A stretch of DNA of 21,127 bases. Origin: a virus. Positions 2,938 through 17,637 of the stretch are shown one piece after another. The DNA is taken from the IMG/VR virus record IMGVR_UViG_3300031227_006127, positions 1-21,127 of that record; one strand, 5' to 3'. Under the pieces are notes generated by a model. The model was not told the origin of the DNA. It worked only from the letters and a program-made list of their open reading frames with translations, and did not search any database. Within the stretch, counting starts at the first letter, position 1. Every line of letters begins with the position of its first letter. The position numbers were made by a program, and so were the translations under genes.

Positions 2938-3213
2938 ATGAACAAAACAGATTTAGTAAATGAGGTCGCGTCATCTATTGATATGACTAAAAGTGATGCT
3001 AGTATAGTAGTATCCACTATGGTTGATTCCATGATAGATGGACTATTGGAAACGGGTAAGTTAGCGCTTTCTGGTCTCGGCACATTTTCGGTGGTTACAC
3101 GTAATGCAAGAGTCGCCAGAAATCCGCAGACCGGTGAACCAGTTGATGTTCCGGCAAAAAGGGTTGTAAAGTTCAAAATATCATCAAAACTCAAAGAAGC
3201 ATTGAACAGTTAA
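2938..3213 (+). CDS. HU/IHF-family DNA-binding protein
   Basis: The 91-residue length and sequence match the HU/IHF family, histone-like dimers that bend DNA. The N-terminal part forms the two dimerisation helices. It is followed by GLGTFSVVTRNARVARNPQT (residues about 46-65), the GxFxVxxRxxRxxRNPxTG signature of the DNA-binding beta arm, then GEPVDVPAKRVVKFKIS and a C-terminal helix (LKEALNS). No domain is missing. It starts the operon that continues into the clamp-loader genes, so it may assist replication or nucleoid packaging. Phage HU homologues are known. Confidence 0.95.
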   Translation: MNKTDLVNEVASSIDMTKSDASIVVSTMVDSMIDGLLETGKLALSGLGTFSVVTRNARVARNPQTGEPVDVPAKRVVKFKISSKLKEALNS

Positions 3214-3226
3214 AAGGAGTGATAAA

Positions 3227-4126
3227 TTGATAACTGATATATGGACGTTTAAGCATGCTCCTGATAAGTTGGAGGACATGATTCTTAATGATACTGTTAG
3301 GACTAAATTCACCAAAATTATCAAGGAACTGCCCAATCTACTTATATATTCAACACCGGGACAAGGTAAAGGAACCTTTGTTGATATTCTCCTTAAAGAG
3401 ACCGGATTGGACTATATGAAAGTTAATGCATCTGATGAAACAGGTATTGATAACCTAAGAACAAAGGTTAAAGGGTTCGCAACATCAATGGGTTCAACAG
3501 ATAAAAAAATTGTGGTATTGAATGAAGCGGATGCTCTATCAATGGGACAGTCCGGTGCACAGAAAATGTTAAGGCAGTTGATGGAAGATGTGCAGGGTAT
3601 AACAAGGTTTATACTACTGGCTAACTATGAACATTTGATAATACCAGAAATAAAATCAAGATGTCAAGTAATTGAGATATCTAATCCACCTGCAAAGGCT
3701 ATATTTTTACATTGTATGAAAATGCTTGCCAAAGAAGGGGTTGAGGTGCGAAATAAATCGGCAATCGTTAGTACTATTAAGAACTTATATCCTGATATTC
3801 GTAAGATAATCAATACTATACAGCTTAACACTGTTGATGGTGTTATTGATTCTATTGAAGTTGAGAAGGTCAATGGCGTATTTACTATAATAAAGGATTC
3901 AATATTGAAAGGTGATGTTGATGAAATAAGAAAAACATTAAGAAGTAACTCTATTGATTACGTTGAGTTATACAGGTATCTATATGAAAACTGTGATGGA
4001 TTCAAGTCACCAGGAGACGTTATCATTAATGTTGGTGAATATATTTACCGGGATTCTATTGTCGCAATCAAAGAAATAAATTTCATGGCAATGGTTATTA
4101 AATGTCTGAAAAATGGGTACATATAA
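3227..4126 (+). CDS. 44: Clamp-loader large subunit (T4 gp44-like AAA+ ATPase)
   Basis: This 299-residue AAA+ ATPase should load the sliding clamp onto primer-template junctions. Visible motifs are Walker A TPGQGKGT (43-50), Walker B VVLNEAD (96-102, with Asn in place of the usual first Asp, a variant seen in some RFC subunits), sensor-1 Asn in LLANYE (about 133) and the SRC arginine-finger motif (144-146). The opening WTFKHAPDKLEDMILND is typical of RFC/gp44 N-termini. Translation starts at a TTG (3227) with AAAGGAG seven bases upstream. The stop overlaps the next gene (gp62-like) in a TAATG junction, and the sliding clamp follows two genes later, so the loader and clamp genes are clustered as in T4. 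Confidence 0.92.
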   Translation: MITDIWTFKHAPDKLEDMILNDTVRTKFTKIIKELPNLLIYSTPGQGKGTFVDILLKETGLDYMKVNASDETGIDNLRTKVKGFATSMGSTDKKIVVLNEADALSMGQSGAQKMLRQLMEDVQGITRFILLANYEHLIIPEIKSRCQVIEISNPPAKAIFLHCMKMLAKEGVEVRNKSAIVSTIKNLYPDIRKIINTIQLNTVDGVIDSIEVEKVNGVFTIIKDSILKGDVDEIRKTLRSNSIDYVELYRYLYENCDGFKSPGDVIINVGEYIYRDSIVAIKEINFMAMVIKCLKNGYI

Positions 4127-4473
4127 TGGCAGAGAAACCAGTTAATATATTCACATTCTTAAATCAGATTTATTATAAGAAATATGACTGTGATTATGAC
4201 CCTAAAGCGGCCAGTATATACATGTTAGCTTTATGGTTATCACATGACAGTAAACTCATTGAAATGGTTAATAGTATTAATGAGTCTATATTCAGATTAC
4301 CGCCAAAGGCCATATATGACTATTTCTTTAACAAGGTTCCGAAGGGTAAGAGATATATTAAGTGGATAAAGAAAGACAAGGAAGATATTAAAAAGGATAA
4401 AGTTATTAAAGAGTTGATGCAAGAAAAGGATATATCGAAAAGGGAAGCAATGATATATATAAAAATGATATAG
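4126..4473 (+). CDS. 62: Clamp-loader small subunit (T4 gp62-like)
   Basis: The 115-residue product matches the diagnostic core of T4 gp62: IYDYFFNKVPKGKRYIKWIK (about residues 82-101) corresponds to the gp62 segment ending VPRGKRYGKWAK, and the C-terminal ISKREAMIYIKMI resembles the gp62 stretch that follows. It is shorter than T4 gp62 (187 aa), lacking the C-terminal region. The start at 4126 forms a TAATG overlap with the gp44-like gene, suggesting translational coupling; an in-frame ATG at 4102 is an alternative. It would be the non-catalytic subunit of the loader complex. Confidence 0.75.
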   Translation: MAEKPVNIFTFLNQIYYKKYDCDYDPKAASIYMLALWLSHDSKLIEMVNSINESIFRLPPKAIYDYFFNKVPKGKRYIKWIKKDKEDIKKDKVIKELMQEKDISKREAMIYIKMI

Positions 4474-4786: not shown

Positions 4787-5539
4787 ATGATACTTAATGT
4801 TGATAAGTTTGAAGATGTTATAAAAAAGGCTACATTGAATTTTACTCTGGAAACCGTCCAGTTGAATTTTAATAAGGATAAGGTTACAACCAAAATATTC
4901 AATTCATCTGAGGACGCCATTGTGTTCCTTAATATTGATAATGATATTGTACCTATCACATCTGAGCATGATGAATTGCAGTTTAATTTCATTGAGCCTA
5001 ACAATACAGTAATTCCTTATTTGTCGCTAATAGACAGTGAGCAGGCTGATATTGAAATCAAGAAGGAAAAGGTTATACTTAAATCGGATAATCAGAGGTC
5101 AAATATATTCTTCTGTTCACCGATAATAGTTAAAGTATTCAATCGTGATGATGTTAAACCCGGTATAGAATACTTTACAAAATTGGCGATTGATGATAAT
5201 TTTGTCAATGGATTTAATAAGATAAAGAAAATCGGGTCACGTTTTGGTAAAATATACATCACAGTGAAGGATAACACGCTATATATGGAAACAATGGATA
5301 AAACCAATAGAAGCTCAAATGGTTTTAGCTTTAATATGGGTAATATAGAAATGTCGGACTTATCCATGTGTTTTAATTACAAAAACATTATTAATCTGAT
5401 GAATGTATTAGCAATAACAGATATAGATAATTTTCATATTAACCTAGCGTATATTGAAGCGCAGGGTCTTGGTATGATGTATGTAACTAATAGTGATGAA
5501 TCAGAAAAATATTATTTGATGTCAAAATCGGATTTATAG
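4787..5539 (+). CDS. 45: Sliding clamp (PCNA/T4 gp45-like)
   Basis: The 250-residue product has the size and alternating beta/helix pattern of the PCNA/gp45 processivity clamp, which encircles DNA as a trimer and tethers the polymerase. The N-terminal half (FEDVIKKATLNFTLETVQLNFNKD...) and C-terminal half (KIKKIGSRFGKIYITVKDNT ... NYKNIINLMNVLAITDID) each look like one clamp repeat. Sequence similarity by eye is modest, as is usual for phage clamps, but the place just downstream of the gp44/gp62-like loader genes makes the call strong. It has its own promoter and a GAGGATAAA ribosome-binding site. In T4 the clamp also activates late transcription, relevant to the TATAAATA boxes here. Confidence 0.85.
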   Translation: MILNVDKFEDVIKKATLNFTLETVQLNFNKDKVTTKIFNSSEDAIVFLNIDNDIVPITSEHDELQFNFIEPNNTVIPYLSLIDSEQADIEIKKEKVILKSDNQRSNIFFCSPIIVKVFNRDDVKPGIEYFTKLAIDDNFVNGFNKIKKIGSRFGKIYITVKDNTLYMETMDKTNRSSNGFSFNMGNIEMSDLSMCFNYKNIINLMNVLAITDIDNFHINLAYIEAQGLGMMYVTNSDESEKYYLMSKSDL

Positions 5540-5549
5540 AAAATAAATG

Positions 5550-5578
5550 TTGACATTGGATGGCGGTAGTGTTAATAT
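5550..5578 (+). promoter_or_regulatory. Distal promoter (P1) of the Ubl gene
   Basis: TTGACA (5550-5555), a 17-base spacer and TAATAT (5573-5578). The -35 is consensus and the -10 nearly so. It gives a leader of about 115 bases that includes the TGAG repeat. Confidence 0.75.
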
Positions 5579-5586
5579 GTAGTCAT

Positions 5587-5606
5587 TGAGTGAGTGAGTG
5601 AGTGAG
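5587..5606 (+). repeat. (TGAG)5 tetranucleotide repeat
   Basis: Five perfect TGAG units in tandem, followed by TGAA, lie between the two Ubl promoters, just downstream of the predicted P1 start site. The tract is not in a gene. Length change by slippage could alter leader structure or promoter spacing. Confidence 0.9.
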
Positions 5607-5643
5607 TGAAGTGGTTAATTAGAACGAGTAAGAAAAATAGTTC

Positions 5644-5671
5644 TTGACATTAACCGATATTATGTTAGTAT
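5644..5671 (+). promoter_or_regulatory. Proximal promoter (P2) of the Ubl gene
   Basis: TTGACA (5644-5649), a 16-base spacer and TAGTAT (5666-5671) lie 28 bases upstream of the Ubl start. A strong AAAAGGAGG site follows. Confidence 0.7.
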
Positions 5672-5699: not shown

Positions 5700-5969
5700 A
5701 TGGAAGAAACATGGAACGGCAGTGATGTCTGGGGAGCGGATGAAAGCGAAGGTAGCAATCCTACAATTCGTGTAAACGGTGAGAATATGGACCTTGATGT
5801 AGGTGATAATTTCAAGGACGTAATCAAGGAAGCATCACTTGAGGCTGGATTCGGCAAATTCAGAGTTATCCTTGACGGTGAGGAAATTCTACCCAGTCAA
5901 GCACCTGAGCTTGTTGAGGCTGGTATGAGGATTGAGGTTCTGCCCTACGATGTACCGGGCGCAGAATAA
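5700..5969 (+). CDS. Ubiquitin-like beta-grasp protein (Ubl)
   Basis: The 89-residue product has an acidic, flexible N-terminal tail (residues 1-20, including SDVWGADESEGS) and a compact beta-grasp-like core (21-82): strand TIRVNGENMDL, helix NFKDVIKEASLEAG, strand FRVILDGEEI, a loop, and the last strand MRIEVLPYDV. It ends in VPGAE, so there is no di-Gly; exposing Gly87 would need removal of two residues, a step the linked JAB peptidase could do (inference). Size and neighbours match PRTRC protein C and other prokaryotic Ubl modifiers. It has two promoters, a near-ideal AAGGAGG site and a strong terminator behind it, so it is probably made in excess of the E2/E1/JAB proteins. By eye it is richer in G+C than its neighbours. 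The fold assignment rests on pattern and context; a ThiS/MoaD-type sulfur carrier is the main alternative. Confidence 0.8.
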   Translation: MEETWNGSDVWGADESEGSNPTIRVNGENMDLDVGDNFKDVIKEASLEAGFGKFRVILDGEEILPSQAPELVEAGMRIEVLPYDVPGAE

Positions 5970-5999
5970 CCAATCTAATATCAAGTAATTACAATAGAA

Positions 6000-6036
6000 G
6001 GTAGCGGCAGTATATGACAGCCGCTACCATTTTTTA
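6000..6036 (+). terminator. Strong rho-independent terminator after Ubl
   Basis: GGTAGCGGC (6000-6008) and GCCGCTACC (6020-6028) form a perfect 9-bp GC-rich stem with an 11-base loop, followed by ATTTTTTA. It lies between the Ubl stop and the E2-like start. No strong promoter is seen between it and the E2-like gene, so E2/E1/JAB expression probably depends on readthrough. Confidence 0.92.
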
Positions 6037-6052
6037 TTGATTGGAGAACATG

Positions 6053-6892
6053 ATGGAAGAACTTGTTAAAATACATGATGATATAACACTTAAAATTGAT
6101 GATTTACTTAATGATACTGGTGAAATCAATCTTGAAAATGTTACACTTCGTATTGGTGGACATGTCTGTAAACTTGAAAAGGTTGATGATGTTGATGTGC
6201 TTGATATTAATAAGGATATCAAGGAAGAATATAAGCAAAAAATCAATGATAAATTGAAAGTTGTATCCGGATTCGTCAATGATAAAATGGTCGAATACCA
6301 GAACGCTATAAACGCTGTTAAAAGTGAGTTTAAACGTAAGGAAAACGACCTTGATGAACGTCTTAGGACATTGGTATCCTTACCTGATATACAATATACG
6401 CACGCAACCAAGGGTCTATCAATCTCAAAGGGAAGTAGTGGTAACAATCTTAGTTGGTTTGTTCGCAGAGTATTTAATCCTAAATTTGTTGATGGCAAGC
6501 CTTTGAAGGACGCCATTGTTAAAAAGATGATAACACCTATCATCATTCAAATAGATACAAGGGACGATAAGGTAACAAGAGTCTCAACAAAACAACTTAT
6601 GAATCTTCAATATTTTGAGCATTACCATCAATCTAATCCTGATTGTTGGGGTAATTGGCATCCTGCCGCTACATGGAGTACACCAGATGATATTATAGCA
6701 ATAGCTGATGAAGCGATATCAGTCCTGGAAAATGTTAATTCAATGTCACTGGCTATGAGGACACCGAGAGGATTACCGAGATTCACTACATTACGCAGAA
6801 ATATTGTACTAGATGGTCCAGTTAGTAATGTGGAATCCAATCAAGAACCAAGGATCGGCTCAACAGATGAACTTGATGTATGGGGTTCATAA
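6053..6892 (+). CDS. E2-like ubiquitin-conjugating-type protein
   Basis: This 279-residue protein appears to be the E2 partner of the cassette. Residues 1-110 are acidic and helical, probably partly coiled coil. The core (about 112-235) ends with FEHYHQSNPDCWGNWHP (188-204), then TWSTPDDIIAIADEAISVLE. That order, a His before Pro-x-Cys-x-Gly, then a Trp and a helix, copies the E2 layout (HPN ... Cys ... W-P ... helix) and the HPHV-x-CWG form of prokaryotic E2-like proteins. C198 is the expected thioester cysteine. The C-terminal tail (236-279) is basic, then acidic, and ends in DELDVWGS, echoing the Ubl N-terminus. ATG 6053 lies six bases after GGAG; TTG 6041 and ATG 6050 are in frame but fit the site less well. 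The E1-like gene follows 18 bases later. Confidence 0.72.
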   Translation: MEELVKIHDDITLKIDDLLNDTGEINLENVTLRIGGHVCKLEKVDDVDVLDINKDIKEEYKQKINDKLKVVSGFVNDKMVEYQNAINAVKSEFKRKENDLDERLRTLVSLPDIQYTHATKGLSISKGSSGNNLSWFVRRVFNPKFVDGKPLKDAIVKKMITPIIIQIDTRDDKVTRVSTKQLMNLQYFEHYHQSNPDCWGNWHPAATWSTPDDIIAIADEAISVLENVNSMSLAMRTPRGLPRFTTLRRNIVLDGPVSNVESNQEPRIGSTDELDVWGS

Positions 6893-6910
6893 CAAGAAAG
6901 GATAAGAGAA

Positions 6911-7492
6911 ATGGGTATTTATGATCGACAAGAAGCATTTAATTTGAATACAGATATTACCGTAAGTATTATTGGCCAGGGCGGAATCGGATATTGGGTA
7001 GCAAAACTACTTGCAATGTCTGGTGTTAAGAACCTTTACCTTTTTGATGATGATGTTATTGAGGAATCCAATCTCAATAGACTTGATCTGCCAATGCAAA
7101 CCCTTGGAATGAATAAGGCTGGTGTCGCTAAAAAGGTAATAAATCAACTACGTCCTGAGTGTTCAGTGTATGTTCTACCTTATCGATTCAAGGAAACATT
7201 GTATACTGATAGTAACTATATTGTTGATTGTACTGATAATTTTGCCTCACAATTAGAAATACAGAAAATAGCAAAAGATAAAGGTGCTATCTATGTGAAA
7301 GCAGGATATGACGGTACACACATATCAATCAGCAATAGTGTGGCCGAATGGGGTGAATCAGTTGATGGATATACAGTGACACCATCTTGGTGTGTACCAG
7401 CTATAACAGTTGCTGCACTTACGGTTGCCAAGATAATGAAATCCTGTGAAAAATCGGCTACATTGGATATAATGGATGTCTTTACTTTTTAA
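6911..7492 (+). CDS. E1/ThiF-like Ubl-activating enzyme
   Basis: The 193-residue protein is a Rossmann-type E1 superfamily enzyme, which adenylates the Ubl C-terminus and can pass it to a cysteine. Visible features are YDRQ near the N-terminus, the nucleotide loop GQGGIG (22-27), acidic FDDD (45-48), the signature SNLNR (53-57), Lys69, and the DCTDN (106-110) Mg/adenylate site. The likely catalytic cysteine is C161 in TPSWCVPA. It is shorter than MoeB/ThiF (about 245 aa) and lacks their paired CxxC zinc motifs, pointing to a dedicated Ubl-conjugation E1. It sits between the E2-like and JAB genes behind an AAAGGATAAG ribosome-binding site. Confidence 0.92.
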   Translation: MGIYDRQEAFNLNTDITVSIIGQGGIGYWVAKLLAMSGVKNLYLFDDDVIEESNLNRLDLPMQTLGMNKAGVAKKVINQLRPECSVYVLPYRFKETLYTDSNYIVDCTDNFASQLEIQKIAKDKGAIYVKAGYDGTHISISNSVAEWGESVDGYTVTPSWCVPAITVAALTVAKIMKSCEKSATLDIMDVFTF

Positions 7493-7511
7493 ATAAGATG
7501 TGTTATATAAT
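7481..7511 (+). promoter_or_regulatory. Possible internal promoter before the JAB gene
   Basis: TTTACT (7481-7486) and a consensus TATAAT (7506-7511) are separated by 19 bases, longer than ideal. If active, it would give the JAB peptidase extra expression independent of the upstream operon. Confidence 0.35.
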
Positions 7512-7534
7512 AGTCTAAAAGAAAGGAAAGTGTG

Positions 7535-8479
7535 ATGAATAAAAATATTATGGAAGAATGTTGGGAAAATGAGGATGTTGTGTATATTGAAACCTGTGGT
7601 AAAGCGCCGGCATCCGTTAATGTGTATGTATCTGAATTGGTTAAGTATAAGATAAGCTTACTGATGGATAAGTTTACATCACTTGAATGGCTAGCATATG
7701 TAACAGGCTCCATGGATGACGATGGTTATATTGTTGAGGATTTATATATACCAAAACAGATGGTTACAAGTGTCGATGTTCATGTTGATCCGAGTGACAC
7801 TATAGGTAAGCCAATAATAGGTATTCTGCATTCCCATCATAACATGTCGCTGAGATTTTCTGGAATTGACCATGATGGTGTGAATAAAAATCATGATGTG
7901 TCTCTCCTTGTTACCCATAAAGGCATGATAGGACAGGTAAGGGTAAAAACAGAATGTGGTTCATATGTTATTGTACCTGCAAGCATTGAACCATATTATG
8001 ATGTTGATGTGGACAAGGACGCATTTCAGGCTGATATGGTTGAAAAAATAAGTGAAATAAAATATGCCCGGAGTCTTACACCTATACAGGGTAAAGGTAC
8101 ATTTAGGGATTATCTACATGATCGAATGACACAGTTAGATGGTGACTTAATCGATATTGATGATGTGGATACAATGATAGAAGAGTATAAATCACGTAAT
8201 GATGATGTATTGGACATGTATGAAGGCTATCCTGTTGATGGTCACCTAGACAGAGAAGAGGATATCGATACAGATAATTTCATGTATGATGACCTGGACA
8301 ATACTGAATTATATGCCGTGGGAAAGGTTAGAACATTATATAGCTACAGGAACATGACACCGCAAGAAACCTCCGTATTAGAAATAATGGGAGAAGGCAC
8401 GCCTGAGTTCAATGATTATTTGGACGAAATTAACGAAGAATATGGTTGTAGTGAACTTGAGAATACCAGATTTTTATAA
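7535..8479 (+). CDS. JAB/JAMM-domain metallopeptidase
   Basis: The 314-residue product has an N-terminal JAB (Mov34/MPN+) zinc isopeptidase domain. The JAMM motif is complete: Glu51 in SLEWLAYVTG, then H99-S-H101, seven residues, S109-x2-D112 (ILHSHHNMSLRFSGIDH). Such enzymes trim Ubl precursors or release Ubls from targets; here the likely substrates are the AE-ending Ubl and its conjugates (inference). Residues about 190-314 form an acidic, probably flexible extension without a recognised domain, so the protein is about twice the length of a bare JAB domain. ATG 7535 suits the AAAGGAAAG site; a GTG at 7532 is adjacent. It closes the Ubl-E2-E1-JAB cassette. Confidence 0.93.
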   Translation: MNKNIMEECWENEDVVYIETCGKAPASVNVYVSELVKYKISLLMDKFTSLEWLAYVTGSMDDDGYIVEDLYIPKQMVTSVDVHVDPSDTIGKPIIGILHSHHNMSLRFSGIDHDGVNKNHDVSLLVTHKGMIGQVRVKTECGSYVIVPASIEPYYDVDVDKDAFQADMVEKISEIKYARSLTPIQGKGTFRDYLHDRMTQLDGDLIDIDDVDTMIEEYKSRNDDVLDMYEGYPVDGHLDREEDIDTDNFMYDDLDNTELYAVGKVRTLYSYRNMTPQETSVLEIMGEGTPEFNDYLDEINEEYGCSELENTRFL

Positions 8480-8501
8480 TCCTAATAAAATACCTTTATT
8501 G

Positions 8502-8509
8502 TATAAATA
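8502..8509 (+). promoter_or_regulatory. TATAAATA box, T4-late-promoter-like
   Basis: TATAAATA lies 33 bases upstream of the ATG at 8543, in the gap after the JAB gene, with no matching -35 box. The spacing to the gene start resembles that of the boxes at 652-659 and 11469-11476. Confidence 0.5.
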
Positions 8510-8542
8510 GTATAGAGGTGTTTTACCTTGGAGGACATCTAT

Positions 8543-8872
8543 ATGAGTAAGATATCAGAATATTTACATGAACCAGTGGATGAATCCATTGAATTACTAC
8601 TTGAAAGCAATGTAAAATTATCACCTTTAGATGGTAAGTCAATAGAATCGGCCATAAAAAACAAACGTAATGCGGAAGTTAATTTGCAATCCTTCCCTGA
8701 AAATACAATCACTGTTATACACGAAGATAATCAAATAGAATTTCAATATGATAAGACCCTGCATGAGGTATCAAATTTTATAATTGATTATTGTGATGAT
8801 AATGAATACACGTCTAAGCATTTCATATTAAACAATAATACACAATATATAATTATAGAAAAGGAGAAATAA
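8543..8872 (+). CDS. Hypothetical protein (109 aa)
   Basis: The acidic 109-residue protein begins with a helical stretch (ISEYLHEPVDESIELLLES), then a beta-rich half ending in NTQYIIIEKEK. No family was recognised. The ATG at 8543 lies eight bases after GGAGG, which decides the start over the in-frame TTG at 8528. It opens a three-gene group with a late-type promoter and abuts the next gene (TAA directly followed by ATG), so these three may be late or virion-related. Confidence 0.65.
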   Translation: MSKISEYLHEPVDESIELLLESNVKLSPLDGKSIESAIKNKRNAEVNLQSFPENTITVIHEDNQIEFQYDKTLHEVSNFIIDYCDDNEYTSKHFILNNNTQYIIIEKEK

Positions 8873-9178: not shown

Positions 9179-9659
9179 GGATGTGTTTTCGGATGCATTA
9201 AAGAAAATACAATCTAAGTCCTCAAAATCCATTGAAAAATTTCTTAAATCTAACTGGGACGACTTTTCTCATATATTGCAGGATAAAGTACTTGAGGATG
9301 ACGCCCTTGAAATAATAAACAGACGATTGGGAACGCATTATAAAACATTAAAAGATATCGATTACATGAAAGTAATGCGATTCACGGAAGGTGTTGACTT
9401 AAATGAGGATTTTGCCCATTATTGGGACCTGATGAAACAGGAAGCATTTCCATCCCTTGCCTTTTACCCGGCATTAATGGTATGGTTAGAGTTTGATAAA
9501 ATGTTGAAGGCAAATGGTACGTCCACTGGCAGTATGAAGGTGGTAATGGTATATGCTGCAATTTGGTTAATATTAATCACTGGTAAATATATTAAGTCAT
9601 TTCGGGATTGGAAAAAGAAGAATCCTGAGGAATATCGAAAGGAAAAAGGATTGGGTTAA
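9141..9659 (+). CDS. Hypothetical membrane-anchored protein (172 aa)
   Basis: Residues 1-105 are mostly helical and charged. Around residues 108-118 lies a hydrophobic patch (FPSLAFYPALMVWLEF), and about residues 133-152 form a clear transmembrane helix (VVMVYAAIWLILITG), followed by a basic tail rich in Lys (DWKKKNPEEYRKEKG). This suggests a protein anchored in the host membrane or in an assembly intermediate, with a positive-inside tail. It overlaps the previous gene and meets the leftward helicase gene tail to tail, with stop codons overlapping at 9656-9659. AAGGA precedes the ATG. No family recognised. Confidence 0.7.
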   Translation: MRLESHLTNLLNEDVFSDALKKIQSKSSKSIEKFLKSNWDDFSHILQDKVLEDDALEIINRRLGTHYKTLKDIDYMKVMRFTEGVDLNEDFAHYWDLMKQEAFPSLAFYPALMVWLEFDKMLKANGTSTGSMKVVMVYAAIWLILITGKYIKSFRDWKKKNPEEYRKEKGLG

Positions 9660-10513
9660 CCTTCATCTAAATTATACTCTGTTGTATCGAATCCTTCACT
9701 ATTATAATAACGCATTCTTTTATCACCGTGTGTTTCTAAGTACTTCACATGGTCTATAATGTCGAATATTGTGGCACCCAATGATTTGTTGGCGTGCTTT
9801 CTTAATGCTCTTCCTATTGACTGTAGCACACGTATTTTACTTTTGAATGGTGACGCAAGCACAATGTATTTAAGCGAGGGAATGTTTACTCCTAGCTGAA
9901 ATATACCATATGTGGCTATGATTATAATGTCTGTTCTGAGACCGCATTCTTTTCTCCAGTACTCTCTATCCTCCACGCTTGTATTACCCCACAAAAAAAT
10001 AACTTCCTTGCCTTCTATATGACTATCCAGGTACTCTTTAAGTACTTTACCTTCCTTTTCAACCTTACCAACAAGTAAAAGCACATTACTATCAAGGTCT
10101 TGTACTGTGTTCTTTATGATGTTCATTCGGAAACTATTATTGAATACATCATCCTTCACTTCATTATATGTACCATCATAATCATGTTTATATGTTAGCT
10201 CAAATGTGTTTATATTACACTTGCTTATATACCCATGTTCCATTAACCAACCGGCGGAGTATGTTCTCAAAATAGGACCAAGATATGATTTTACATTCAG
10301 TGTTTCTAAACGATATGTGGGCATGGTGCCGGTAAACCCAAGACGATATTCAGCTTTTGTGGCATGCTTTAATATCTCCCGCAATTCTAATCCCCGGATA
10401 CCATGACAGTTCGATACTACTAAGTTATTTGCAATATAATTATTATTATTTTTTACATGTAAATTATAAACATTAGTAGGTTTATTTATTTTTTCTATAC
10501 ATTTTACTTTCAT
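9656..10513 (-). CDS. uvsW: UvsW-like helicase C-terminal half with IntC
   Basis: Residues 1-35 are a C-terminal split-intein fragment: KVKCIEKINKPTNVYNLHV (block F region) and the terminal NLVVSN, with Asn35 as the splice residue and Cys36 as the +1 residue. Residues 36-285 are the rest of the SF2 helicase: CHGIRG completes the DECH box, GFTGT is motif III, IIIATYGIFQLGVNIP is motif V and QSIGRALRKH is motif VI. This half has its own ATG (10513) inside the end of the endonuclease gene. It cannot work as a helicase alone, as Walker A and most of the DExH box lie in the protein encoded at 11377-12429. The penultimate intein residue is Ser, not the usual His. Trans-splicing would give a protein of about 471 residues, close to T4 UvsW (503). 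Confidence 0.9.
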   Translation of the reverse strand: MKVKCIEKINKPTNVYNLHVKNNNNYIANNLVVSNCHGIRGLELREILKHATKAEYRLGFTGTMPTYRLETLNVKSYLGPILRTYSAGWLMEHGYISKCNINTFELTYKHDYDGTYNEVKDDVFNNSFRMNIIKNTVQDLDSNVLLLVGKVEKEGKVLKEYLDSHIEGKEVIFLWGNTSVEDREYWRKECGLRTDIIIIATYGIFQLGVNIPSLKYIVLASPFKSKIRVLQSIGRALRKHANKSLGATIFDIIDHVKYLETHGDKRMRYYNSEGFDTTEYNLDEG

Positions 10514-11435
10514 ATTTTATTATTGATGATAACATTTTTTCTTTTATATCATCATATCCTTTTATATTTTCAATATCATTTTTTTTATTGTAAAAATAAT
10601 CGTCACTAATTATGTGAAATGTAAAATTATTTTCGCTGCACCATTCAGTTGCCGCTTCGATTTTTTTTATAAATCTAATACTATCTCTATGCGAACTAGG
10701 TTTTATTTCAATAAGTTTTTTTTCTTTTTCATTAATAAAATCAACTATATATATTCGTTTAATGTTGTTTTCATCGAAATATGGTATTCTAATTGTTTCA
10801 TATTTTAGATCATCATGTAATATGTGATATATAGCTTCCCATGATGATCTAAATTTTTTATTTCCAACAATACATTGCCAGTGTGTTTGTGAATTATGAA
10901 CATTCGGCGTGAATTCTCCTTTTAATATTTTTTCCTTCATTATTTTAGATTTGTTTTCTCGACATTCAATAGATAAATGCTTACCGAACATTGGGTTACC
11001 ATCGCCTGTCCTGTCTATTGAAATTTTTTTAAGTCTATCGTCTGTATATTTTGTTTTACCTTTATTCCAAACATTATAAGGTAATTTTTTACCCTTCCAA
11101 TAGGATGGACTGTTTAATATATGCGATACTATATTAGGATATTTTTTTTGACAATTATATCCACCTTTTCTACCAAATATCTGTTTTATTTCTTTCTCTT
11201 TTTTTAAAATTTCATCGTTATTAAAACTATATAATATATCAAAATTTTGTGGATATAGTAAAATACCCCGTGTTAGTCTTTTATACAACTTTTTTACTTC
11301 TTTTCTATTTAATATTTTTCCATTAGATAATTCAGCACATTTATCAGTGTATACTATTATTCGCAATTTTTGTTTGTTATTTTTTAATATATTGTTCATT
11401 TTCTGTATTAATTCCGATGTTGTTAATCTTTTCAT
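10482..11435 (-). CDS. Free-standing homing endonuclease (uvsW insertion)
   Basis: The 317-residue protein lies between the two intein halves, overlapping IntN by 59 bases and IntC by 32. NUMOD3-type DNA-binding motifs are visible (NKGKTK at 124-129; GNPMFGKH at 146-153), a modular element common in phage homing endonucleases. The C-terminal part has FRSSWEA (E200), VDF (D232) and IEIK (E243, K245), a PD-(D/E)xK/Vsr-like nuclease pattern like that of endonucleases reported in 'fractured genes'. The start at 11435 follows AGAGGT, and a TATAAATA box lies upstream at 11476-11469. It probably cuts uninserted uvsW alleles near the DECH box to spread the insertion. Confidence 0.85.
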   Translation of the reverse strand: MKRLTTSELIQKMNNILKNNKQKLRIIVYTDKCAELSNGKILNRKEVKKLYKRLTRGILLYPQNFDILYSFNNDEILKKEKEIKQIFGRKGGYNCQKKYPNIVSHILNSPSYWKGKKLPYNVWNKGKTKYTDDRLKKISIDRTGDGNPMFGKHLSIECRENKSKIMKEKILKGEFTPNVHNSQTHWQCIVGNKKFRSSWEAIYHILHDDLKYETIRIPYFDENNIKRIYIVDFINEKEKKLIEIKPSSHRDSIRFIKKIEAATEWCSENNFTFHIISDDYFYNKKNDIENIKGYDDIKEKMLSSIIKYESKMYRKNK

Positions 11436-12429
11436 AATATTTTACCTCTTGTTGTGTGTCTTTATATCTATTTATATCAAAAGACAAAATATTATCGTTT
11501 TTTGTTAACATATCAACACGTTTATATCCGTCAACTGTTAAAACTTTATGATTACCGGTTATTTTTATAACACTATTATCGTCCATTACAAGTTCATACA
11601 TATCATTGGAAGCGGATATATTACTATTATGATATACATTTTCAACAATATCATTTTCAAATGTATTTGTTTTTATATTATAACTTATTATACTATCACC
11701 AATTTTAATGTCGGAAATATCTTTTTCTCCAGTTGGTGTTTTTATTTTTGTATCACCACTTAAACATTCATCAACAATAACACAGTCATAGTTGGCTAAT
11801 ATTGTTTTCTTATTCTGCAATGTCTGCCATGTTGATATTGTTATAGGCATATCGTATGTTAATTCTTTGCATGTACTGTATACTCGTCCAATAGTGTCCT
11901 CATTAATACCATAATCAATCAGGTCTTCATAGAACTGCTCCACAAGTGCCGTGGAAGGTACAATAATAATAGGTTTTTTTATCACATTATTATCCATCAG
12001 GTTTTGTAAAATATATGATATCATTAAACTTTTTCCTGATGCCGTGGCGCTAACTATGATTCCACTCTTGTATTTTATACCGGCTTCTATGCAATCCCTC
12101 TGATAATCATATGGTTTATATTTTAGATCATATTTTAATTCGATGGAAGCACCCTTGAACATGGCAAGCACATCAGGTGATATGGTTATTGTGGTATTAG
12201 CATAATTCTTTTTGTGAAAACGTACCACTTCGGTAAGCAGTCCATAAGGTAGGGTTCTGTTATTATTGAATAAGCACACCTTACCATTCCACTGGCCTGA
12301 TTTATACTTTTGCATGTGGATGTAATTCTCAACATACTCAGTAAAATATTCCTTTACATTTCGTATATATTCAGTGTCTAAGGTATCGATTTTTATATGT
12401 AATCCATCATGTTTTATAATATTAACCAT
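11377..12429 (-). CDS. uvsW: UvsW-like helicase N-terminal half with IntN
   Basis: Residues 1-221 are the N-terminal half of a T4 UvsW-type SF2 helicase, which unwinds branched DNA in recombination and repair. The UvsW N-domain signature YKSGQWNGKVCLFNNNRTLP is at 42-61, Walker A SATASGKS at 127-134, motif Ib region ISTWQTL, and VIVDE at 217-221. The DExH box then breaks off at C222, where a split-intein N-half starts: block A CLSGDTKIKTPTGE, block B ITGNHKVLT with its His294 intact, ending at residue 350. The missing CH of DECH is supplied by the protein at 9656-10513. The gene starts a few bases after the Cys-rich gene (AGGATA site) in the uvsY-led minus-strand operon. Confidence 0.92.
   Translation of the reverse strand: MVNIIKHDGLHIKIDTLDTEYIRNVKEYFTEYVENYIHMQKYKSGQWNGKVCLFNNNRTLPYGLLTEVVRFHKKNYANTTITISPDVLAMFKGASIELKYDLKYKPYDYQRDCIEAGIKYKSGIIVSATASGKSLMISYILQNLMDNNVIKKPIIIVPSTALVEQFYEDLIDYGINEDTIGRVYSTCKELTYDMPITISTWQTLQNKKTILANYDCVIVDECLSGDTKIKTPTGEKDISDIKIGDSIISYNIKTNTFENDIVENVYHNSNISASNDMYELVMDDNSVIKITGNHKVLTVDGYKRVDMLTKNDNILSFDINRYKDTQQEVKYYEKINNIGINTENEQYIKK
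11469..11476 (-). promoter_or_regulatory. TATAAATA box before the endonuclease gene
   Basis: TATAAATA on the minus strand lies 33 bases upstream of the endonuclease start at 11435, inside the IntN coding region. This would let the endonuclease be made late, as for T4 intron-encoded endonucleases. Another copy at 12508-12515 (minus) lies inside the Cys-rich gene, 78 bases before the helicase start. Confidence 0.45.
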
Positions 12430-15889: not shown

Positions 15890-16408
15890 ATGGCGGTTAT
15901 TAAAGTAGAGCGTGTTTTGGAAGATGCTATTATACCCACAAGGGCACACAAATCAGATGCAGGATATGACCTATATACACCAGTTGATTTTGTTGTACAT
16001 GGACAGGCAAGGGAAATAGTTGACATTGGCATACGAATAGCGTTAACTGATGGATATGAAGGACAGATAAGAGGCAGGTCAGGAATCGCAGCTAAAAAAG
16101 GTGTATTTGTGTTAAATTCACCTGGAACTATAGATTGTTTTGATGAAAATAGTTATATAAAGACCGTGGACGGTGATAAGAAAATAAAAAATATTTCTAT
16201 TGATGATATTGTGTTTTCGGTGGATAATAATGGTGATATTACAAAGGATACCGTGGTTTGTATTATAAACACAGGAATTAAAGATATATTGAGCATCGAA
16301 ACGGATGCTGGTGTTTTAAAAGTAACTCCAAATACAAAAATTTACACAAAAGATGGTATAAAAAATGCATGTGATTTAACTACTAAGGATGGGTTAATCA
16401 AATTTTAA
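15890..16408 (+). CDS. dut: dUTPase N-terminal half with IntN
   Basis: Residues 1-82 are the N-terminal part of a trimeric dUTPase, which hydrolyses dUTP to dUMP and keeps uracil out of DNA. Motif I is SDAGYDLY (22-29), motif II GRSG (62-65), and the start of motif III is SPGTID (77-82). Right after the catalytic Asp82 the sequence switches to a split-intein N-half at Cys83 (CFDENSYIKTVDGDKKIKN), which ends at residue 172. Block B reads VTPNTKIYT: the usual His of TxxH is Thr here. The remaining motifs III-V are encoded at 17344-17637. The spliced enzyme would be about 143 residues, the normal size. A GGAGATAGAA site precedes the ATG, two bases after the RlaP stop. Confidence 0.92.
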   Translation: MAVIKVERVLEDAIIPTRAHKSDAGYDLYTPVDFVVHGQAREIVDIGIRIALTDGYEGQIRGRSGIAAKKGVFVLNSPGTIDCFDENSYIKTVDGDKKIKNISIDDIVFSVDNNGDITKDTVVCIINTGIKDILSIETDAGVLKVTPNTKIYTKDGIKNACDLTTKDGLIKF

Positions 16409-16413
16409 ATATT

Positions 16414-16454
16414 TTTACTTCTATATACTAAATACATATAGACTATGTATATAG
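16414..16454 (+). promoter_or_regulatory. Promoter/hairpin leader of the endonuclease gene
   Basis: TTTACT (16414-16419) and TATAGA (16437-16442) with a 17-base spacer could be a promoter. In RNA covering the segment, CTATATA (16421-16427) can pair with TATATAG (16448-16454), with an inner CATA/TATG helix; the 3' arm covers the first two bases of the AGGAG ribosome-binding site (16453-16457). An alternative 7-bp stem is 16432-16438/16444-16450. Such a hairpin could limit translation from long transcripts but not from a promoter starting inside it. Confidence 0.35.
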
Positions 16455-16466
16455 GAGTGAAATATA

Positions 16467-17366
16467 ATGATTAAATGTAAAATATGCGGACATGTTGCAA
16501 AATATAGATTAATAGAGCATATCATAAAACAACATAAAATAACATTAAAGGAATATAAAGAAAAATATGGCGATTATATAACAGATGAATATAGGGACCG
16601 TGTTAGTAAAAAATCTAAAGAAAAATGGAAAGATACCGAATATAGAAATAAAACAATGAACGCTATGAAATATATCTACACAGATGTTGATATTCGTAAA
16701 AAAAGATCAAATACAATAAAAGAGCGATACAGAAAAGGAGAAATAACAGTATGGAATAAAGGATTAACAAAAGATGATGATGTAAGATTGAAACATATAG
16801 GTGAATATAATAAACAAAATTTAAGAGGTAGAACAAAAGAAGAATACCCATATTTGATGAAACATAGTAAACTTATAAAAAAACTATGGAAAAACAAAAA
16901 TAGTAATATGACATATGCAACAAAATGTTTATCAGATGGTGATATATTAAAATGGAAAGAAAAAATATCAGATACCATGTCGAGTCGAATTGCGGATGGC
17001 ACATTAAATACCATGAGTAATTTTAAAAACGGTTATTATAATTCAATTGATGGTGAAAAATATTGGTATGCGTCATTATTAGAATTAAATGCAATGAAAT
17101 ACTTCGATGTTAATAAAATAAAATGGACAAATAAGCATGGAATACGAATAAAATATTTTATAAATGATACACAGCATTATTATGTTCCTGATTTTTTAAT
17201 TGAAGTTGATGGTATTGAATATGTTATAGAAATGAAAGGATGGCAGACAGAGGAGGTTAATATAAAGGAAAAATACACAAGAAAAATATATGGTAATAAA
17301 TATTTTATCATATATTCAATAAATGAACTGGAGGATATAATAAATGGAATATGTAAGAGTGAATAA
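16467..17366 (+). CDS. Free-standing homing endonuclease (dut insertion)
   Basis: The 299-residue protein starts with a C2H2-type zinc finger of MucR/Ros style (C4, C7, H18, H23, followed by ITLKEYKEKYG). NUMOD3-like motif VWNKGLTKDDDVRLKHIG lies at about 95-112. The C-terminal nuclease has SLLELNA (E206), YVPDFLIEV (P241, D242) and VIEMKG (E255, K257), a clear PD-(D/E)xK pattern of the Vsr-like kind described for fractured-gene endonucleases. AGGAG at 16453-16457 precedes the ATG. Its 3' end overlaps the IntC gene by 23 bases. It shares its layout (NUMOD3 then nuclease) with the endonuclease at 10482-11435 but has a different N-terminus, so the two are probably separate invasions of related elements. 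Confidence 0.88.
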   Translation: MIKCKICGHVAKYRLIEHIIKQHKITLKEYKEKYGDYITDEYRDRVSKKSKEKWKDTEYRNKTMNAMKYIYTDVDIRKKRSNTIKERYRKGEITVWNKGLTKDDDVRLKHIGEYNKQNLRGRTKEEYPYLMKHSKLIKKLWKNKNSNMTYATKCLSDGDILKWKEKISDTMSSRIADGTLNTMSNFKNGYYNSIDGEKYWYASLLELNAMKYFDVNKIKWTNKHGIRIKYFINDTQHYYVPDFLIEVDGIEYVIEMKGWQTEEVNIKEKYTRKIYGNKYFIIYSINELEDIINGICKSE

Positions 17367-17637
17367 AATAACCAAAAGCAATAAACAAACGTATGATATA
17401 ACCATCAACAATAACCATAACTTTTTTTGTAATAATTTTTTAATAGGTAATAGTTCGTACCGTGGGAATATAAAAACAATTCTATTTAACACCACACGAC
17501 TTCCTGTGTATTTCAAGAAAGGCGATAAAATATCACAAATGGTCTTCAACCGAATCCCAGAAACATCACTTGAGGAAGGTGTCGTCTCTATTGATACTGA
17601 TAGAGGTGAAGGTGGAATGGGGTCAACAGGTAATTAA
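17344..17637 (+). CDS. dut: dUTPase C-terminal half with IntC
   Basis: Residues 1-36 are the C-terminal intein fragment: YDITINNNHNFFCNNFLIGN is block F through the terminal Asn36, with Ser37 as +1 residue. The penultimate residue is Gly, not His. Residues 37-97 complete the dUTPase: SSYRG (rest of motif III), FKKGDKISQMVF (motif IV region) and the glycine-rich motif V RGEGGMGSTG. The gene has its own ATG after GGAGGATATAATAA within the end of the endonuclease gene. Alone it has no active site. The stop at 17635-17637 abuts the ATG of the uracil-DNA glycosylase gene. Confidence 0.92.
   Translation: MEYVRVNKITKSNKQTYDITINNNHNFFCNNFLIGNSSYRGNIKTILFNTTRLPVYFKKGDKISQMVFNRIPETSLEEGVVSIDTDRGEGGMGSTGN

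Follow-up and report, generated by a model that had tools for sequence, protein, structure and literature searches.

The stretch of DNA analyzed here (the window) is a 21,127-base fragment of a virus (IMG/VR record IMGVR_UViG_3300031227_006127). Directly downstream of genes for an HU-type protein, the two clamp-loader subunits and, as judged by position, the sliding clamp, it carries four consecutive plus-strand genes for a small ubiquitin-like protein (Ubl), an E2-like protein, an E1/ThiF adenylating enzyme and a JAB peptidase. The coordinates of these features are collected in Table 1, in which residues of the E2-like protein and of JAB are counted from the ATG codons at 6053 and 7535, respectively. 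A sequence-only reading of this DNA had described the four genes as a complete phage-encoded Ubl-E2-E1-JAB conjugation cassette, and our analysis confirms the positions and motifs of the genes and supports this interpretation, with the corrections given below. Scans against Rfam and for tRNA genes were empty.

Table 1. Features of the replication region and of the Ubl cassette in the 21,127-base window.
Position	Strand	Feature	Basis
2938..3213	+	HU-type DNA-binding protein, upstream neighbor in many relatives	Pfam PF00216, 9e-30; synteny
3227..4126	+	Clamp-loader large subunit (gp44-like)	PHROG 168, 1e-63; Gp44_lid
4102..4473	+	Clamp-loader small subunit (gp62-like)	Phage_clamp_A, 9e-11; PHROG 225
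4787..5539	+	Sliding clamp (gp45-like by position), directly upstream of the cassette	Position after gp44/gp62 in every relative; no Pfam or PHROG match of its own
5550..5671	+	Two promoter-like sites, TTGACA-17-TAATAT (5550-5578) and TTGACA-16-TAGTAT (5644-5671), both with an upstream TG; a TGAG x5.8 repeat between them (5587-5609)	Number of sigma-70 promoter sites in the region not above shuffles
5700..5969	+	Ubiquitin-like modifier, 89 aa; conserved C-terminal glycine G87 followed by two residues (AE)	Predicted beta-grasp fold; conservation
6000..6035	+	Terminator-like hairpin between Ubl and E2: perfect 9-bp stem (GGTAGCGGC/GCCGCTACC), then T6	Fold z -5.7; missed by a scan with a loop limit of 8
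6053..6892	+	E2-like protein, 279 aa: long predicted helix 50-106, E2-like domain 105-252 with H190-Y-H192 and C198, tail ending DVWGS	Structure model; conservation
6911..7492	+	Probable minimal E1/ThiF adenylating enzyme, 193 aa; no conserved catalytic cysteine outside DCTD	Pfam PF00899, 1.4e-26; conservation
7535..8479	+	JAB/JAMM metallopeptidase, 314 aa (E51, H99, H101, S109, D112; invariant C21 and C141), variable tail	Prok-JAB, 1.9e-4 (below its cut-off); invariant JAMM motif

While the E1 matched the ThiF family and JAB matched Prok-JAB below its cut-off but with a complete JAMM motif, the Ubl and the E2-like protein matched no Pfam, PHROG or NCBIfam family convincingly. To assess how widely the cassette is distributed, we searched cultured phages (INPHARED) and IMG/VR. 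Cultured phages gave no match to the E2-like protein or to the clamp, and only generic ThiF matches to the E1, whereas IMG/VR contains many relatives. The four genes recur in the same order in 32 distinct lineages of uncultured T4-like phage contigs. In every lineage that spans the region, the order is gp44 - gp62 - clamp - Ubl - E2 - E1 - JAB on one strand, often with HU in front. Two lineages are partial exceptions: L013 (5308-13528) has Ubl and E2 but no E1 or JAB in its 19-kb fragment, and L028 has E1 and JAB without Ubl or E2, with a serine recombinase plus TnpB-like pair (IS607-type; L028:3366-5337) lying upstream where these genes are missing. In lineage L017 we found two adjacent E2 genes (6941-8689), both keeping the cysteine motif.

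Since these contigs had been found through E1 or E2, we searched again with the clamp alone. Of the 33 contigs recovered, 26 have Ubl-E2 directly after the clamp (24 with all four genes in the stretch retrieved), while seven, belonging to four lineages, have other genes there; none of four representative contigs of these lineages has E1 or E2 elsewhere in the fragment. The cassette is therefore a common but not universal part of the replication block of an uncultured T4-like group. Consistent with the affiliation to T4-like phages suggested by the gp44/gp62 clamp loader, the T4-type capsid protein gp23 is encoded on 5 of 14 related contigs, which may be fragments, although not in the window itself. 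We found no host; the only hits in cellular genomes are two contigs of one Thermoplasmata MAG, and these are probably phage contigs in the bin. Elsewhere in the window (9656-12429 on the minus strand and 15890-17637 on the plus strand), a UvsW-type helicase and a dUTPase are each broken into an N-part, a separate endonuclease-like ORF and a C-part with intein-like ends, which looks like the fractured-gene/split-intein arrangement; the close relative L002 has an intact helicase ORF of 471 aa.

We next examined the conservation of the predicted catalytic residues across the 32 lineages. The cysteine of the E2-like protein is present in 32/32 (preceded by HYH in 31 and by QYH in one, with a spacing that varies among relatives), as are the five JAMM residues and the two further JAB cysteines. 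Likewise, the E1 residues for ATP and Ubl adenylation (G22/G24/G25/G27, D46, D48, N54, R57, K69 and D106) are invariant in 32/32. However, E1 Cys161, which the sequence-only reading had listed among the E1 motifs, is conserved in only 4/32 lineages and is Val or Ala in the other 28, so that the E1 is probably a minimal adenylating enzyme that hands the Ubl straight to the E2. C107 is conserved in 31/32 but lies in the DCTD motif, which appears to be common to ThiF/MoeB proteins; an unusual thioester site at this position is not excluded. The Ubl keeps a glycine at the same place in 30 of 32 lineages, some of which had to be classified by eye; 17 end exactly on it, 13 carry 1 to 6 more residues, and two (L046 and L113) lack it. 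Where the Ubl ends on the glycine, JAB has nothing to mature, yet its motif is intact, and we infer that deconjugation is its general role. The JAB tails vary strongly between relatives; the JAB proteins of L003 (8612-10054) and L017 (9308-11239) have long tails of repeated cysteine modules, possibly zinc ribbons for target choice, whereas the tail of the window JAB has none.

The cassette is under purifying selection (dN/dS 0.08-0.26), and the distances of E2+E1+JAB are correlated with those of gp44+clamp (Mantel r 0.68; 0 of 10,000 permutations). This indicates that cassette and replication genes have largely been inherited together. These data also bear on the possibility that the cassette serves in counter-defense, interfering with a host Ubl-based defense (Bil, CBASS Cap2/Cap3 or Bub-like; Ye et al. 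2026, named in PMC13373217) through a decoy Ubl or through JAB cleavage of host conjugates. Bacteria do use Ubl conjugation against phages (PMC11354881, PMC10097602), and the variable JAB tails would fit this view. Nevertheless, a full E1-E2-Ubl set is more than a decoy or a deconjugase needs, the single-domain Ubl is not Bil-like, and both the location within the replication block and the co-divergence with it look like a core function rather than a swapped defense island. We therefore regard counter-defense as unlikely. A phage-borne module aimed at competing phages, following the same logic by which Bil acts on phage assembly, would be compatible with its absence from four related lineages, but appears to us a remote possibility.

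To evaluate the folds of the two proteins without family matches, we compared their structure models with known structures. The Ubl model (pLDDT 77, core near 88) is a clear beta-grasp and finds ubiquitin, MoaD, ThiS and SUMO. In the model of the E2-like protein (pLDDT 78), the long helix is followed by a domain that aligns to UBC enzymes in about 40 of the top 50 structural rows (Z 5.5-6.5, 113-128 residues). Foldseek, however, gave no significant match for this model, no Pfam E2 family was reached, and Z values below 8 can reflect a common arrangement; support for the E2 fold is therefore only moderate. The placement of C198 at the UBC active site is inferred from its position between the last strand and the following helix. 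The best E1 relatives of known structure include UBA5, a minimal E1.

The closeness of the E1 to the ThiF/MoeB group, its lack of an E1 catalytic cysteine and the C-terminal glycine of the Ubl would also be compatible with a sulfur carrier system, in which Ubl and E1 form a ThiS/ThiF- or MoaD/MoeB-like thiocarboxylate pair and JAB cleaves an adduct. We consider this improbable, since an E2-like protein with an invariant cysteine is encoded in every complete cassette and no rhodanese, ThiG, MoaE or cysteine-synthase gene was seen in the four-gene block. Furthermore, a terminator serving the Ubl gene alone suggests that the Ubl is consumed in bulk. Hairpins of at least -12 kcal/mol before a T-run lie within 140 bases after the Ubl gene in 15/32 lineages, against 0/32 after gp44, gp62, clamp or E1, 4/32 after E2, 10/32 after JAB and 15/480 random windows. 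The stems differ in sequence. This fits a partial terminator that should give more Ubl than enzyme, as a consumed modifier needs, although the expression ratio is inferred.

A second feature is a tryptophan close to the end of the E2-like protein, which was found in all 32 tails (typical ending DVWSS), against 17% of ORFs with a tryptophan in the last 12 residues. Most Ubls have a W or F near the N-terminus, and related motifs occur in Ubl and JAB. We asked whether the tail motif might be a clamp-binding box, but this was not supported, as the DNA polymerase tails of the same phages end in a different pattern (L.LFF-like or FFFG-like). A genome-wide scan for the motif gave few hits above shuffles beyond the E2 tails from which it was built. 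Small acidic or disordered proteins with repeated W motifs (such as KIWDTGEGWSTGETEDVWRS) resembling the E2 tail are possible partners or targets; they are encoded at L048:4876-5436, at 24007-24282 of G001 (the contig of L003) and at 6610-6861 of G004 (the contig of L017), but those of G001 and G004 have no relatives in the six genomes compared.

We then compared the cassette with known systems. It appears to belong to the general kind of prokaryotic Ubl-conjugation operons (Iyer, Burroughs and Aravind 2006; PMC1779556), in which operon type 6d has the same four separate components and an E1 without fused E2. The 6d E2, however, lacks the upstream His and has a conserved His downstream of the Cys, whereas here two His lie upstream (HYH in 31/32) and no downstream His is invariant; 6d also has an extra helical protein and was described from bacteria, while the present cassette is clamp-linked and phage-encoded. 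The sequence-only reading had named PRTRC and BilABCD as known relatives, but membership in either system, or among Cap2-type systems, is not supported. The bacterial antiphage operon BilABCD (as described in PMC11354881) likewise combines Ubl, E1, E2 and JAB, but BilA has two tandem Ubl domains, BilD has two adenylation halves and a Cys domain, and BilB has a CEHH motif (E +6, H +8 and H +13 from the Cys); here, the Ubl and the E1 have one domain each, and no His or Glu is conserved at those offsets after C198. PRTRC was named in the sequence-only reading for its ThiF, JAB and E2-like parts, yet our E1 scores 23.5 bits against the PRTRC_ThiF (TIGR03736) cut-off of 144.75, and no PRTRC model hits the other proteins. 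CBASS Cap2/Cap3 has E1, E2 and JAB activities, but E1 and E2 are fused in Cap2 and there is no beta-grasp Ubl, the CD-NTase being the substrate (PMC12355090). UBA5/UFM1, MoeB-MoaD and ThiF-ThiS share a minimal adenylation-domain E1, but UBA5 forms an E1 thioester (PMC12355090), and MoeB and ThiF serve sulfur transfer without an E2. The lambda/T1 tail assembly proteins TAPI-TAPK (PMC1779556) combine a phage-encoded Ubl with JAB, but lack E1 and E2 and lie in tail genes.

A survey of 224 jumbo phages by the group that described bacterial Ubl operons does not mention Ubl, JAB or ThiF in its main text (PMC7824862), and we found no phage-encoded E1-E2-Ubl-JAB set in the open papers searched, although a prior description in subscription papers or preprints cannot be excluded. 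Three other virus contigs carry clearly different sets, so such cassettes seem widespread in environmental viruses: L037 (5805-8270; Ubl-E2-E1-JAB, with a related Ubl, hhalign 91%), L005 (6000-9219; with a double Ubl) and L004 (4976-8606; with two Ubl-like genes). Gene orders differ in L004 and L005, and the E2 assignment there was made by eye only; profile comparison of the E2-like protein with the candidates of all three contigs gave no usable signal.

Taken together, these data are best explained by a complete phage-encoded ubiquitin-like conjugation cycle, a view that we hold with reasonable though not full confidence, since every enzymatic step is inferred from gene content, motif conservation, synteny, the predicted Ubl fold and co-divergence. 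In this model, the E1 adenylates the C-terminal glycine of the Ubl and, lacking a conserved crossover-loop cysteine, passes it directly to Cys198 of the E2, which transfers it to protein targets without a recognizable E3. JAB trims the short C-terminal extension where one exists (under half of the lineages) and removes the Ubl from conjugates in all, the hairpin keeps Ubl in excess over the enzymes, and the long helix and the tail tryptophan motif of the E2 probably serve for docking. Because the cassette sits behind the clamp and evolves with the replication genes, a replisome protein is the first guess for a target, although a shared position next to the clamp does not show that the clamp itself is one. 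It is conceivable, but rather unlikely on present evidence, that these phages modify their own sliding clamp, or a protein on it, to switch replisome function, as a viral counterpart of PCNA ubiquitination and SUMOylation in eukaryotes. Ubl conjugation in prokaryotes is known mainly from bacterial defense and mobile-element operons; a complete, compact four-gene cycle that is a regular part of the replication block of many T4-like phages would mean that viruses of bacteria use ubiquitin-like tagging for their own replication cycle or for host takeover.
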